This document shows positions 9,405 through 17,579 of a stretch of DNA of 35,842 bases, in pieces (positions within the stretch are counted from its first letter, which is position 1; every line of letters starts with the position of its first letter). The notes beneath the pieces were generated by a model. That model was not told where the DNA came from. It worked only from the letters and a program-made list of their open reading frames with translations, and did not search any database. Origin of the DNA: a virus; the IMG/VR virus record IMGVR_UViG_3300021131_000026, positions 1 to 35,842 of that record. One strand, given 5' to 3'. The translations under genes were made by a program, and so were the position numbers.

Positions 9405-9914
9405 TCAATTTATCAGGACTGTATTCTCTTTCGTATTGAGTGCATCTGCGCCCAGGTTGCCCTGTAATTCCACAAATAGTTTTCCACGGCTGCCCCCCCT
9501 AATCGGTATTTCAGGTAATTGGTCAAGTGTAATTCCAACAATATAAAGATGTGTCCATTTTCTAGCCACATGACCAAAATGGTATTGGTCAATAAGAATG
9601 GTAAAACCACCAAATTCATCAGGAAATTCGCCAGGCATGGGTAATGGCGCTTCTTTCCATAAACGACTGCCTTTAGGATGTTCTAATACACCACCATTTT
9701 TACGCACTTTTTCTAATGCAAACCAAGCCAAATCTTTTTCGTCTGGGCGTGGGTTAGCCATGTGACTTAAACGACCCCAAGCACGACATGGTGGATGAGC
9801 AATCACAGGGTAATTTTCATTAAAGTTTCTTGCATCTCGGTCAATGTCATAAACATCATAGCCTGGTAACTCTTTGTAACGACTGTCTTGTCGTGCAAAT
9901 AACACAGCAATCAT
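9405..9914 (-). CDS. HPPCRAW-motif phage protein, interrupted at a G7 tract (-1 frameshift candidate)
   Basis: The zero frame gives 169 residues. It has IAHPPCRAWGRLSHMANPRP (38-57), reminiscent of the PPC motif of DNA methyltransferases but without other methylase motifs, and a GGVLEHPKGSRLW segment. After residue 139 or so the zero frame becomes unlike a normal domain end. The tract AGG GGG GGC (9500-9492) holds the heptamer G GGG GGC. One slip of -1 there opens a frame of 41 more residues (QPWKTICGITGQPGRRCTQY, then EREYSPDKLIEF, then MTQICEKIK) ending at 9367 in an ATGA overlap with the next gene; the product would be 182 residues. Either programmed frameshifting or a one-G deletion explains it. 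Function unknown. Confidence 0.7.
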   Translation of the reverse strand: MIAVLFARQDSRYKELPGYDVYDIDRDARNFNENYPVIAHPPCRAWGRLSHMANPRPDEKDLAWFALEKVRKNGGVLEHPKGSRLWKEAPLPMPGEFPDEFGGFTILIDQYHFGHVARKWTHLYIVGITLDQLPEIPIRGGSRGKLFVELQGNLGADALNTKENTVLIN

Positions 9915-10057
9915 TTAAGGTTTAACCATAAACCAACTTGGGCGGCAGCATAGCCAACCCAAATTAAAGAGTTAGACATAGACCCTTTATAAAACTGTAA
10001 AAGGCCAACCACTAAATACCCAAGCCCTGTCGCAGCGACAATGTATTTTTCTATCAA
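9911..10057 (-). CDS. Small two-helix membrane protein (48 aa)
   Basis: Encodes two hydrophobic segments, IVAATGLGYLVVGLLQFY and SLIWVGYAAAQVGLWLNL, separated by a short KGSMSN turn. Small proteins with this look (a second helix with YAxAxVGL) are frequent in phages and have no proven function. The start is TTG at 10055-10057, overlapping the sulfotransferase stop as TTGA; no ATG or GTG lies nearer. The stop overlaps the next ATG as ATGA. Whether it belongs functionally with the sulfotransferase is unknown. Confidence 0.65.
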   Translation of the reverse strand: MIEKYIVAATGLGYLVVGLLQFYKGSMSNSLIWVGYAAAQVGLWLNLK

Positions 10058-10644
10058 AATGTATATCCAAACGTATCAATGTCTTTTTCAAACAACTTAG
10101 CAACTTTTTGCTTTTGAGCATCGTTGTAATAAGACCTATATTCGTCATGGAATGTTCTATTGACCAAATCTAAATCAATGTGAAAATCCACAATATCTTG
10201 AATAACTTTAAAGTCTTCTTTTAAGTTTTCCTGTGTTAACAAATATGTTACACCGTCAGGAATCCAATCTGCCTGATTAGTTGTAGTGGTGAACCAATGT
10301 AATGTGTGATATTTCTCAATATTGTTTAACCATTGATTAAAGCTAGGAAACTCATCTACTAGATTATTGACTTTACGAAAGTTTACGCACCAAGCCGTTT
10401 GACCATCACGAGCAAAAGTATAAAAGCTCACTACTCTATCCCAAGGATTACGCACAATTGCAAAAGTTTTATTGGTAGGCAAAGTCTTTTTAAGCATTGG
10501 CAGACTTTCGTGTGATCCAAAAAATACAGGGTCAGCCTCAAAAAAAGACTTGTTTTCTGTAAACCATTTGACTACGGCAGTTCCGGCATTTTTAGGAATA
10601 TGCACAAATGTAATGTCGTGCTTAGGTAAATAAATAGCGGTCAT
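10054..10644 (-). CDS. Sulfotransferase (PAPS-dependent, family 2-like)
   Basis: A 196-residue protein with both PAPS-binding signatures: FVHIPKNAGTAVVKWF (13-28; 5'-phosphosulfate loop with K18) and FAIVRNPWDRVVSFY (61-75; 3'-phosphate loop with R65 and S73). This is the carbohydrate sulfotransferase type, moving sulfate from PAPS to a hydroxyl. There is no signal peptide or membrane helix, so it would act in the cytoplasm. The acceptor is unknown: a cell-surface sugar precursor, a virion glycan or a small molecule are all possible. I chose the ATG at 10642-10644 because the TTG further up lies in the GGGAG ribosome site. It is coupled to the DUF2061 gene and follows an APS-kinase gene, which would supply PAPS. 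Confidence 0.85.
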   Translation of the reverse strand: MTAIYLPKHDITFVHIPKNAGTAVVKWFTENKSFFEADPVFFGSHESLPMLKKTLPTNKTFAIVRNPWDRVVSFYTFARDGQTAWCVNFRKVNNLVDEFPSFNQWLNNIEKYHTLHWFTTTTNQADWIPDGVTYLLTQENLKEDFKVIQDIVDFHIDLDLVNRTFHDEYRSYYNDAQKQKVAKLFEKDIDTFGYTF

Positions 10645-10820
10645 TTGGACTCCCAAAATATCTCATGTAAGTAATACAAAATTGTGTTAACTATCATTTG
10701 CAAAATAGCAATACTGCTTGAAACTAGAATCATGCCAGTAATTAAATAACTAATTGCAAAAGTGCTTGTTGTTCCAATTACACGCCAAGTAAACGTTTTT
10801 ATTAATGATTTACTTAACAC
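10641..10820 (-). CDS. DUF2061 membrane protein
   Basis: A 59-residue protein with the DUF2061 pattern: KSLIKTFTWRVIGTTSTFAI, then SYLITGMILVSSSIAILQMI, then a C-terminal LYYLHEIFWESK. Two membrane helices are likely. The family has no proven function, but from memory it is often found next to or fused with sulfate-activation genes such as cysC. Here it lies exactly between an APS-kinase-like gene and a sulfotransferase. The start is GTG at 10818-10820, with AGGGA eight bases upstream and a stop codon directly before it; it overlaps the kinase end by 11 bases. Its stop overlaps the sulfotransferase ATG. Confidence 0.8.
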   Translation of the reverse strand: MLSKSLIKTFTWRVIGTTSTFAISYLITGMILVSSSIAILQMIVNTILYYLHEIFWESK

Positions 10821-11643
10821 CTAAATTTTCCCTAATCTTTGTTGCGCTTATAGAAGTAATAGACTCATCAAAAGTTTCTTGTTCTATTTTGTAGCCTACA
10901 TCACGCCCATAGGTAATATTTACTATATTTGGCACAACTTGGATATAGTATTGACCTTGATACAAAGGGTCTAAATCTCTAATGATGTTGTCTTTTACTT
11001 GTTGTAGGCTAAAAGGATTGCTTTGGTTCCATCCTTGACAATCCCTTATCTGAATCACTACTTGCCCAGTTTTAGCAAGACTGCGCTCAAACAAAGCACG
11101 ATGGCCTTTATGCCAAGGCTGCCATCTACCTAACATTTGTACGGTTTCGTTCTTCCAATCAAATGTTGGACGCCTACGATTTTCAATAATGTGATTACCT
11201 ACAAACTCAGCCCATTTTTCGCAATTCTGTTCTGTGATACGGAAATCATAAACTTCAGGTGGCACAAAGGCTTTATTGGTGTCATCAAATCGACCGGCAT
11301 CAATCGTGTCCATCCAAATAGTCCAATCGGCTTTGAAGTTGTTACGCATTTCTACAAGTGGAGCTACAAAATCACAAATTACATAGTCACCGCCAGCAGA
11401 TAAAGCAAAATCAGCCATTCGAATGCTTTGACGAATTCGACCTTCTTTAGAAAAATCCCAATCATTGTATTTTTTTCTCACCTCATCTGCGTTAAACCAT
11501 GTGACTTTACAACCATATTCACCAATGTGTTCATTTAAGGCCCTTGCATAAGACATTTGACCATATTCTTCTAAATAAGCCTTTAATGCTTGAGCAAAGT
11601 ATGTTTTGCCTGATCCAGGCAAGCCCATAACAAGTATTTTCAT
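10810..11643 (-). CDS. APS kinase-like / nucleotidyltransferase fusion
   Basis: A 277-residue two-domain protein. Residues 1-130: P-loop GLPGSGKT (7-14), NADEVRKKYN (51-60, compare DGDNVR of CysC), FSKEGRIRQSIRMADFA (64-80) and VICDFVAPL (88-96, compare VSFISP), the APS-kinase pattern that makes PAPS. Residues 168-277: a nucleotidyltransferase with GRWQPWHKGH (172-181, HxGH) and ISATKIR (265-271), most like NMN adenylyltransferase and cytidylyltransferase. The second half is not a typical ATP sulfurylase. The joint function is therefore open: PAPS supply for the sulfotransferase two genes downstream is favoured; a NadR-like NAD role is the alternative. The start overlaps the hydroxylase stop. 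Confidence 0.78.
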   Translation of the reverse strand: MKILVMGLPGSGKTYFAQALKAYLEEYGQMSYARALNEHIGEYGCKVTWFNADEVRKKYNDWDFSKEGRIRQSIRMADFALSAGGDYVICDFVAPLVEMRNNFKADWTIWMDTIDAGRFDDTNKAFVPPEVYDFRITEQNCEKWAEFVGNHIIENRRRPTFDWKNETVQMLGRWQPWHKGHRALFERSLAKTGQVVIQIRDCQGWNQSNPFSLQQVKDNIIRDLDPLYQGQYYIQVVPNIVNITYGRDVGYKIEQETFDESITSISATKIRENLGVK

Positions 11644-12170
11644 TTGTATATATCCACAATAATGTGTATGCGATCTTCTTGCCCATTGTTTTTAACCATG
11701 TGCAAAGCCTGATTGTTAAACCACCAAATCTCGCCTGCGTTCATGTGTACGCTGTCAGACCCAGCAGTAAAGGTAACGTTTTCATTGCTAGTCACAACCA
11801 TGTGATAACGGTCAATTCTTTGAGCGTATCGACCCTCATCAATGTGATAATCAATGACTTCGCCCGGGCGTAAGTTAGCCACCATGACACGCCCTAAATT
11901 CTGATAAGAAAATTCGTCTAATACTGCATTAAAAGTTTTAGGCAAATAACGCTGAGAAAAGTAATCTACACAAGGCAATGAGTTGTAAAAAAATTCATAA
12001 GTGGCATCGTAACCAACAGGTTGAAAGCGCAAAATAATATCTTGCACAGCCATGTGTTTTAGCGTGGGATCATTCCTGCGTAAGTTAAGCCAATTCCACA
12101 AATGCGTAATTTTTAATTCTTTAACAACATTAGATGGGTCAAAAGTACCCATTAATTTGAAATTATCCAT
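11640..12170 (-). CDS. Aspartyl/asparaginyl beta-hydroxylase-like 2OG-Fe(II) oxygenase
   Basis: A 176-residue protein whose C-terminal half fits the aspartyl/asparaginyl hydroxylase fold: GRVMVANLRPGEVIDYHIDE with the iron ligands H109 and D111, a central RYHMVV strand, the AGEIWWFNNQALHMV segment with the second histidine H157, and R167 for 2-oxoglutarate. The layout is complete, so an active enzyme is likely. Phage members of this family have unknown targets. The ATG of the kinase fusion overlaps its stop, so the two are translationally coupled, which suggests a shared pathway (inference). Confidence 0.83.
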   Translation of the reverse strand: MDNFKLMGTFDPSNVVKELKITHLWNWLNLRRNDPTLKHMAVQDIILRFQPVGYDATYEFFYNSLPCVDYFSQRYLPKTFNAVLDEFSYQNLGRVMVANLRPGEVIDYHIDEGRYAQRIDRYHMVVTSNENVTFTAGSDSVHMNAGEIWWFNNQALHMVKNNGQEDRIHIIVDIYK

Positions 12171-16865: not shown

Positions 16866-17068
16866 TACTTACGCATATTAGGCAAAGGTGCTTCTTTTTG
16901 GCTTGCCTGGTGCGGATGGTGGGCTTTTTCCATAGGCAAAGCAATGTGTTTATCTAGCTTTTGCTCTAGGCGCTCAATGCGGTCTTCTGTACGATGCTCA
17001 GAATCTTTAACATAGTGACCCTTAGGTGACTTGTATTCTTTGCCTTCAATTTTAAAATTAGTTGCCAT
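16862..17068 (-). CDS. Small basic protein (68 aa), last of the leftward late unit
   Basis: Encodes MATNFKIEGKEYKSPKGHYV, a helical DRIERLEQKLDKHIA segment and a histidine-rich end (EKAHHPHQASQKEAPLP). No family recognised. I chose the ATG at 17066-17068 because the TTG above it lies in the GGAG ribosome site. It overlaps the endolysin stop by 11 bases. No terminator separates it from the convergent gene. Confidence 0.6.
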   Translation of the reverse strand: MATNFKIEGKEYKSPKGHYVKDSEHRTEDRIERLEQKLDKHIALPMEKAHHPHQASQKEAPLPNMRKY

Positions 17069-17579
17069 TTGATTCTCCAATCATTTTTAATGCATTTTGT
17101 TTAACATCTTCAACTCGTTTGAGCCAACCTTTGCCAAATACAGGAAACGTTTTAAGCGCTTCATAAAAGCTAATTTTACGCTGACTAAAGGCTTCTACAA
17201 TATCTTCAGCCTTTTTTTGGTCTAATAATTGCATAGTGCGTGGCCCAATTAAACCATCAGGAACGCATTGCATAGCTTCTTGTAACAATTTTATTGCTCT
17301 GCCAGGCCCCATATTGACCGCAGCATCAAATAAACAATAATCCACGCCTGTTTTTAATTGGGGCGCATAGCAAGCCATCCAATACTTAGCCTTATACATA
17401 GGCGCAACATCATCAGGGGTTAAGTCTTTCATAGTCTTAACGTCATGCCCAACCCATTCTTCCCATACACTTTTGGTAACGCCTAGGTTAGTTTCACCGC
17501 CAGGATCAGCAGGATTATTAACCCAACCACCTTCAGACTTTAAAACCAACTCCAAAGACTTATCAAAGTTGGCGTTCAT
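17058..17579 (-). CDS. Endolysin, GH108 muramidase
   Basis: A 173-residue enzyme. Residues 8-40 contain SLELVLKSEGGWVNNPADPG and then GETNLGVT, with the catalytic glutamate E16 in SEGGW, the signature of glycoside hydrolase family 108. The C-terminal half (NMGPGRAIKLLQEAMQ, DGLIGPRTMQLL) is the family's peptidoglycan-binding domain. It cuts the glycan chain of the cell wall at the end of infection. No signal peptide, so it depends on a holin. The start overlaps the Rz gene stop as ATGA-type coupling. Confidence 0.92.
   Translation of the reverse strand: MNANFDKSLELVLKSEGGWVNNPADPGGETNLGVTKSVWEEWVGHDVKTMKDLTPDDVAPMYKAKYWMACYAPQLKTGVDYCLFDAAVNMGPGRAIKLLQEAMQCVPDGLIGPRTMQLLDQKKAEDIVEAFSQRKISFYEALKTFPVFGKGWLKRVEDVKQNALKMIGESNGN

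Follow-up and report, generated by a model that had tools for sequence, protein, structure and literature searches.

The window, which is the whole stretch of DNA analysed (a 35,842-base virus record, IMG/VR IMGVR_UViG_3300021131_000026, positions 1 to 35,842), comes from a freshwater phage and carries a cassette of four minus-strand ORFs through which the infecting phage probably synthesises activated sulfate and puts it to use (probability approximately two in three). This reading draws on the presence, coupling, and conservation of the genes, on predicted fold and conserved residues, and on linkage to enzymes that use APS or PAPS. The transcription order is hydroxylase, kinase fusion, DUF2061, and sulfotransferase, with successive genes overlapping by 4, 11, and 4 bp and translationally coupled (Table 1). 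The ORFs, the overlaps, and the Pfam matches all agree with the preliminary description, which had reported four coupled genes of these families. It had called the second gene an APS-kinase-like fusion; the kinase half of that name was upheld, and the other half, which it left unnamed, is a HIGH-type nucleotidyltransferase domain. Repeats within this region appear to be coincidental.

Table 1. Cassette features, with positions in the window.
Feature	Position	Strand	Basis
2OG-Fe(II) hydroxylase, Asp/Asn beta-hydroxylase family, 176 aa	11640..12170	-	PF05118
Whole kinase-nucleotidyltransferase fusion gene, 277 aa	10810..11643	-	Single ORF; phrog_10255, E 1.3e-46
APS-kinase-like domain, fusion residues 1-156	11176..11643	-	PDB profile, fold, invariant residues
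HIGH-type nucleotidyltransferase domain, fusion residues 164-276	10816..11154	-	NMNAT-like profile matches, predicted fold, genomic company
Small membrane protein with DUF2061, 59 aa, optional	10641..10820	-	PF09834, E 3e-18
PAPS-type sulfotransferase, 196 aa counted from ATG	10054..10644	-	PF03567, PHROG

The hydroxylase passes the PF05118 cut-off (E 6.9e-15, 55.7 bits vs. 22.6), has all metal-binding and 2OG-binding residues of the HxD...H...R set (H109-x-D111, H157, R167), and weakly matches L-proline cis-4-hydroxylase in the PDB. The sulfotransferase passes PF03567 (Sulfotransfer_2; 37.2 bits vs. a cut-off of 22), and its PHROG match is "Galactose-3-O-sulfotransferase" (E 2.4e-14). Its PAPS-binding loops are PKNAGT at residue 17 and RNPWDRVVS at residue 65, which we take to be the 5′-phosphosulfate loop and the 3′-phosphate motif, respectively.

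When the window sulfotransferase was used as a query among viral contigs, no relatives were found by its own patterns; cassette relatives were therefore sought through the hydroxylase and the kinase. The hydroxylase scan returned 17 further contigs (hydroxylase identity 65–69%). The kinase was next to the hydroxylase in 17/17, and the sulfotransferase followed the kinase in 14/14 of the contigs extending far enough. Several flanking genes are common to the window and the 17 contigs, which thus represent one phage group, so the shared order is conservation within a lineage. Within that lineage the hydroxylase-kinase-sulfotransferase arrangement is more than chance, and dN/dS in close pairs was approximately 0.03–0.14 for the three genes, indicating purifying selection. 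In 6 of the 17 contigs the gene in the kinase slot encodes, or starts as, a short kinase-domain-only protein; the kinase domain alone accompanies a sulfotransferase at L085 and L095. DUF2061 was present in one of the 17 close relatives and lies beside the kinase or close to it in numerous other phages; we regard it as an optional membrane accessory and not as a constant part of the cassette. The comparison thus leaves hydroxylase, APS-kinase-like kinase, and sulfotransferase as the constant set, so that the four-gene order given previously recurs in other phages for these three genes, but not constantly for DUF2061. Downstream of the cassette (9405-9914), a protein of unknown function matching phrog_12600 (E 4.5e-54) is absent from the 17 contigs.

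By its sequence, its predicted fold, and most of its active-site residues, the N-terminal domain of the fusion is an abbreviated APS kinase. A query profile built from 39 viral relatives of the fusion and searched against all PDB sequences matched more than 20 APS kinases, with E values down to 5.5e-15 (2.5e-12 for human PAPSS1), and the nearest non-APS P-loop kinase had E 1e-3. The hhalign probability against E. coli CysC was 97.9%. The domain scored above the PF01583 gathering cut-off (33.4 vs. 21.1 bits; short kinase-only form, 40.2 bits) and missed that of the apsK equivalog TIGR00455 (26.7 vs. 138.7 bits). The AlphaFold2 model of the fusion had a mean pLDDT of 87.8; when residues 1–156 of this predicted structure were compared with known folds, the top 30 rows were all APS-kinase chains or domains (Z 14.6–17.4), with gluconate kinase next (Z 13.7). 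The P-loop and the equivalents of CysC D65, R68, F77, R82, and P110 were invariant in 239/239 phage relatives; the first four are presumably the APS-binding residues (E. coli CysC numbering). The phage kinase therefore has the fold and these residues in common with CysC, but differs in that D63 (the first Asp of DGD) is replaced by N and N85 by Q or H, in that no RDxKG lid motif could be aligned in any of the 239 relatives, and in its score below the NCBIfam equivalog.

In human PAPSS1/2, too, an APS kinase at the N terminus precedes a HIGH-superfamily adenylyltransferase, and full-length PAPSS1 matched fusion residues 1–276 in the same domain order, with a large rmsd. The human enzymes are, however, approximately 620 aa long, compared with 277 aa for the phage fusion, whose kinase lid is abbreviated and whose putative adenylyltransferase, unlike theirs, is not of the Sat family.

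At least 595 relatives of the fusion were found in IMG/VR, and three IMG/VR scans gave approximately 240 more kinase loci. Across viral loci, the kinase was found near at least four sulfotransferase groups, including a Sulfotransfer_2 type, a Sulfotransfer_3 protein of 590 aa that bears TPR-like repeats, a 280-aa sulfotransferase encoded immediately before short kinases, and two more in DLP_6-like loci. The commonest Pfam families among the immediate neighbors of 55 non-redundant kinases were Sulfotransfer_3 and Sulfotransfer_1, which were rarer at distance 4–5 from the kinase than immediately beside it. Kinase and sulfotransferase were adjacent in 12 of the 55 loci, against 4.3 expected (within-locus permutation, P = 1e-4), and 33 of the 55 phage kinase loci had no sulfotransferase within the fetched flanks. 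Other neighbors were glycosyltransferases, methyltransferases, UDP-galactopyranose mutase, and further glycan genes, which point to a glycan acceptor, and in some viral loci other 2OG oxygenase families. The earlier suggestion that the kinase makes PAPS and the transferase uses it thus gains good comparative support from kinase sequence, predicted fold, and residues, and from the excess of adjacent pairs.

The nucleotidyltransferase domain (approximately 115–119 aa) carries GRxQPxHxGH and ISATxIR motifs that are invariant or nearly so in the 39 fusion relatives. Its best sequence relatives in profile searches are NMN adenylyltransferases (NadM, NadR), which have both motifs; compared with these, the phage domain is shorter, misses the curated NCBIfam cut-offs (26.6 vs. 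127 bits for NF002243; 23.5 vs. 181 bits for TIGR01527), and keeps genomic company with APS and PAPS enzymes. The predicted fold is nearest PPAT/NMNAT, with ATP sulfurylases lower among the Foldseek hits, and a fold search with the C-terminal domain alone did not separate PPAT, NMNAT, and ATP sulfurylase. With the ATP sulfurylase Sat (TIGR00339), whose reaction we propose for it, the phage domain shares the fold of the superfamily, ISxTxxR, and a motif of the HxxH type. Sat, however, is approximately 380 aa long and has an N-terminal domain that the phage protein lacks, and it reads QxRNxxHxxH where the phage domain reads GRxQPxHxGH. Profile comparison with two Sat proteins showed no homology (hhalign probability 3.9%, nothing shared beyond ISxTxxR), and the QxRN motif is missing; the domain is therefore not filed as Sat, and is proposed only to work like it.

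Among bacteria and archaea, a genome scan found members of the family in SAR11, SAR86, SAR116, Bradyrhizobium, and elsewhere; the kinase and the nucleotidyltransferase are two adjacent genes in SAR86 and at one common SAR11 locus. The complete SAR86 chromosome CP097973.1 has these split genes and two sulfotransferases, with no Sat, no CysD, and no APS-kinase match besides the split gene. Among 81 SAR86-order genomes at least 80% complete, Sat was found in 1 and CysD in none, whereas the nucleotidyltransferase was present in 42 and Sulfotransfer_3 in 44. Forty genomes had both nucleotidyltransferase and sulfotransferase, 35 had neither, and 6 were discordant (Fisher P = 4.5e-16, ancestry ignored). 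In 15 genomes of this order the two genes are 547–576 bp apart, a gap that fits the kinase, and an operon of kinase, nucleotidyltransferase, and sulfotransferase was seen directly at one locus (L352). In the SAR11 order (68 genomes), the nucleotidyltransferase was present in 51 and true AprA in 52, with 48 genomes having both, 13 neither, and 7 discordant (P = 3.4e-8, ancestry ignored). Both sets of counts disregard shared ancestry and genome gaps, and most of the genomes are incomplete. The nucleotidyltransferase lies beside apr genes in 19 SAR11-order genomes, convergent with aprA and approximately 375 bp from it in 17 and upstream on the same strand in 2. At one SAR11 locus (L351) and one SAR116 locus (L304) the kinase is absent and aprM-aprB-aprA follows the nucleotidyltransferase directly (AprB confirmed by Pfam, AprA by TIGR02061, AprM named by position). 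A few genomes (G009, G010, G013, G021) carry Sat too. The few true Sat genes of SAR116/SAR11 (L341, L342) are, by eye, beside surface-polymer-like genes and not beside apr. Five weak matches to the nucleotidyltransferase profile in the SAR86 order (370–380 aa) were considered as Sat and rejected, because those at L343 and L344 read as another protein (L343:2134-3243, L344:1035-2147; 370 aa, with a start that is CinA/PncC-like by eye).

Sulfotransferases thus accompany the kinase on its own, APS reductase accompanies the nucleotidyltransferase on its own, and in genomes lacking a known ATP sulfurylase the two occur jointly with sulfotransferases. What these settings have in common is APS, which suggests that the nucleotidyltransferase is a compact analogue of ATP sulfurylase, that PAPS is the product of the kinase, and that the phage fusion acts as a miniature PAPS synthase to supply its sulfotransferase. 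In the proposed pathway, the nucleotidyltransferase domain would convert ATP and sulfate to APS, and the kinase domain, judged by fold, conserved residues, and context, would add a 3′ phosphate to APS, yielding PAPS. The sulfotransferase would then use PAPS to sulfate an acceptor; its family and the glycan-gene neighborhoods make a glycan or another surface molecule the likeliest candidate. Where a cassette has just the kinase domain, the APS would come from the host, and DUF2061 would be a dispensable membrane accessory. The hydroxylase, by its co-location, might perhaps create, prepare, or otherwise modify the acceptor. The interpretation offered in the preliminary description thus kept its putative route from kinase to transferase via PAPS; it had missed the second domain, and the hydroxyl-creating role that it gave the hydroxylase is a tentative suggestion from co-location. 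On balance we also lean, a little less firmly than toward sulfate activation by the cassette as a whole, toward the fuller proposal that the approximately 115-aa domain is an unrecognised compact ATP sulfurylase, that with the abbreviated kinase it forms the smallest PAPS synthase, that it supplies APS in most SAR11 and PAPS for sulfation in SAR86, and that phages use it to sulfate a surface molecule. We know of no smaller PAPS synthase.

The existence of kinase-only cassettes, which shows that the nucleotidyltransferase is dispensable in some phages, fits an arrangement in which the APS kinase feeds the sulfotransferase and the fused domain does another job, for example sugar-phosphate activation. 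The NMNAT-like sequence of the domain and its many glycan-gene neighbors agree with such a job, but it would leave unexplained why the nucleotidyltransferase alone stands beside aprMBA and why it tracks AprA in SAR11 and sulfotransferases in Sat-less SAR86; we consider it unlikely. The departures of the kinase from canonical APS kinases could instead mean that the fusion makes a 3′-phosphonucleotide carrier of a non-sulfate group, which the "sulfotransferase" would move. A CysC-like kinase makes such a carrier in Campylobacter phosphoramidate synthesis. The association with AprBA, an APS enzyme, and with several separate families of PAPS-type sulfotransferases makes this explanation improbable.

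Phage accessory regions are crowded, the 17 close contigs are one phage group, and viral cysC is filed in the literature under assimilatory sulfate reduction (PMC12713726), as would be expected if separate accessory genes had been packed together by chance and the viral kinase only boosted that host pathway. The retention of gene order at 65–69% protein identity and the repeated pairing with different sulfotransferases, above the within-locus permutation, make chance packing very improbable. NAD salvage by a nicotinamide riboside kinase and an NMN adenylyltransferase (NadR-like in reverse order) would account for the NMNAT-like motifs and a 50% hhalign probability to NadR, but is scarcely credible for a protein whose kinase half is specific to APS kinases, whose nucleotidyltransferase has approximately 119 aa vs. 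approximately 168 aa in archaeal NMNAT, and whose distribution is patchy (42/81 SAR86-order genomes), unlike that of an essential NAD step, and tracks APS and PAPS enzymes.

Activated-sulfate synthesis and use by the cassette would give a concrete role to two groups of viral genes usually listed without function, the phage sulfotransferases and viral "cysC", the latter usually read as sulfate assimilation. Literature searches were consistent with the earlier statement that no phage pathway with this gene set had been described. Sulfotransferases occur in OM43 phage and cyanophage genomes, and their function has been called unclear (PMC10580990). As in the window, PAPS-type sulfotransferases are there found on phages with 2OG oxygenases in the same lineage; the text of that paper does not mention APS kinase or PAPS. 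The placement of viral cysC under assimilatory sulfate reduction comes from a review and is not validated (PMC12713726). Most SAR11 are reported to lack ATP sulfurylase despite having APS reductase (PMC10356861), and the nucleotidyltransferase is a candidate for the missing enzyme; our search found no paper proposing this family for the step. If the proposal is true, the metabolism of the commonest ocean bacteria, of SAR86, and of many phages would have to be modelled differently.

Several further arrangements were observed. A short kinase lies directly before a kinase-nucleotidyltransferase fusion, in tandem, at L151:4001-5368, and two short kinases are side by side at L169-L171. In approximately 13 related phages with DLP_6-like loci (L184-L197), a peroxiredoxin (AhpC/TSA) gene follows the fusion and the two genes preceding it are sulfotransferase-like. 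The isolate Stenotrophomonas phage DLP_6 (L082, L102), a possible laboratory model, carries the fusion; three genes upstream of it is a gene annotated as an Fe(II)-dependent oxygenase, and a sulfotransferase lies approximately 90 kb away. Limnohabitans phage DC33 (L100; PQ492659.1; 39 kb, circular) has a hydroxylase 33% identical to that of the window; it is recorded as Inoviridae, which looks unlikely for 39 kb. Elsewhere in the window, positions 17058-17579 encode an endolysin of the glycoside hydrolase 108 type that also has a peptidoglycan-binding domain.
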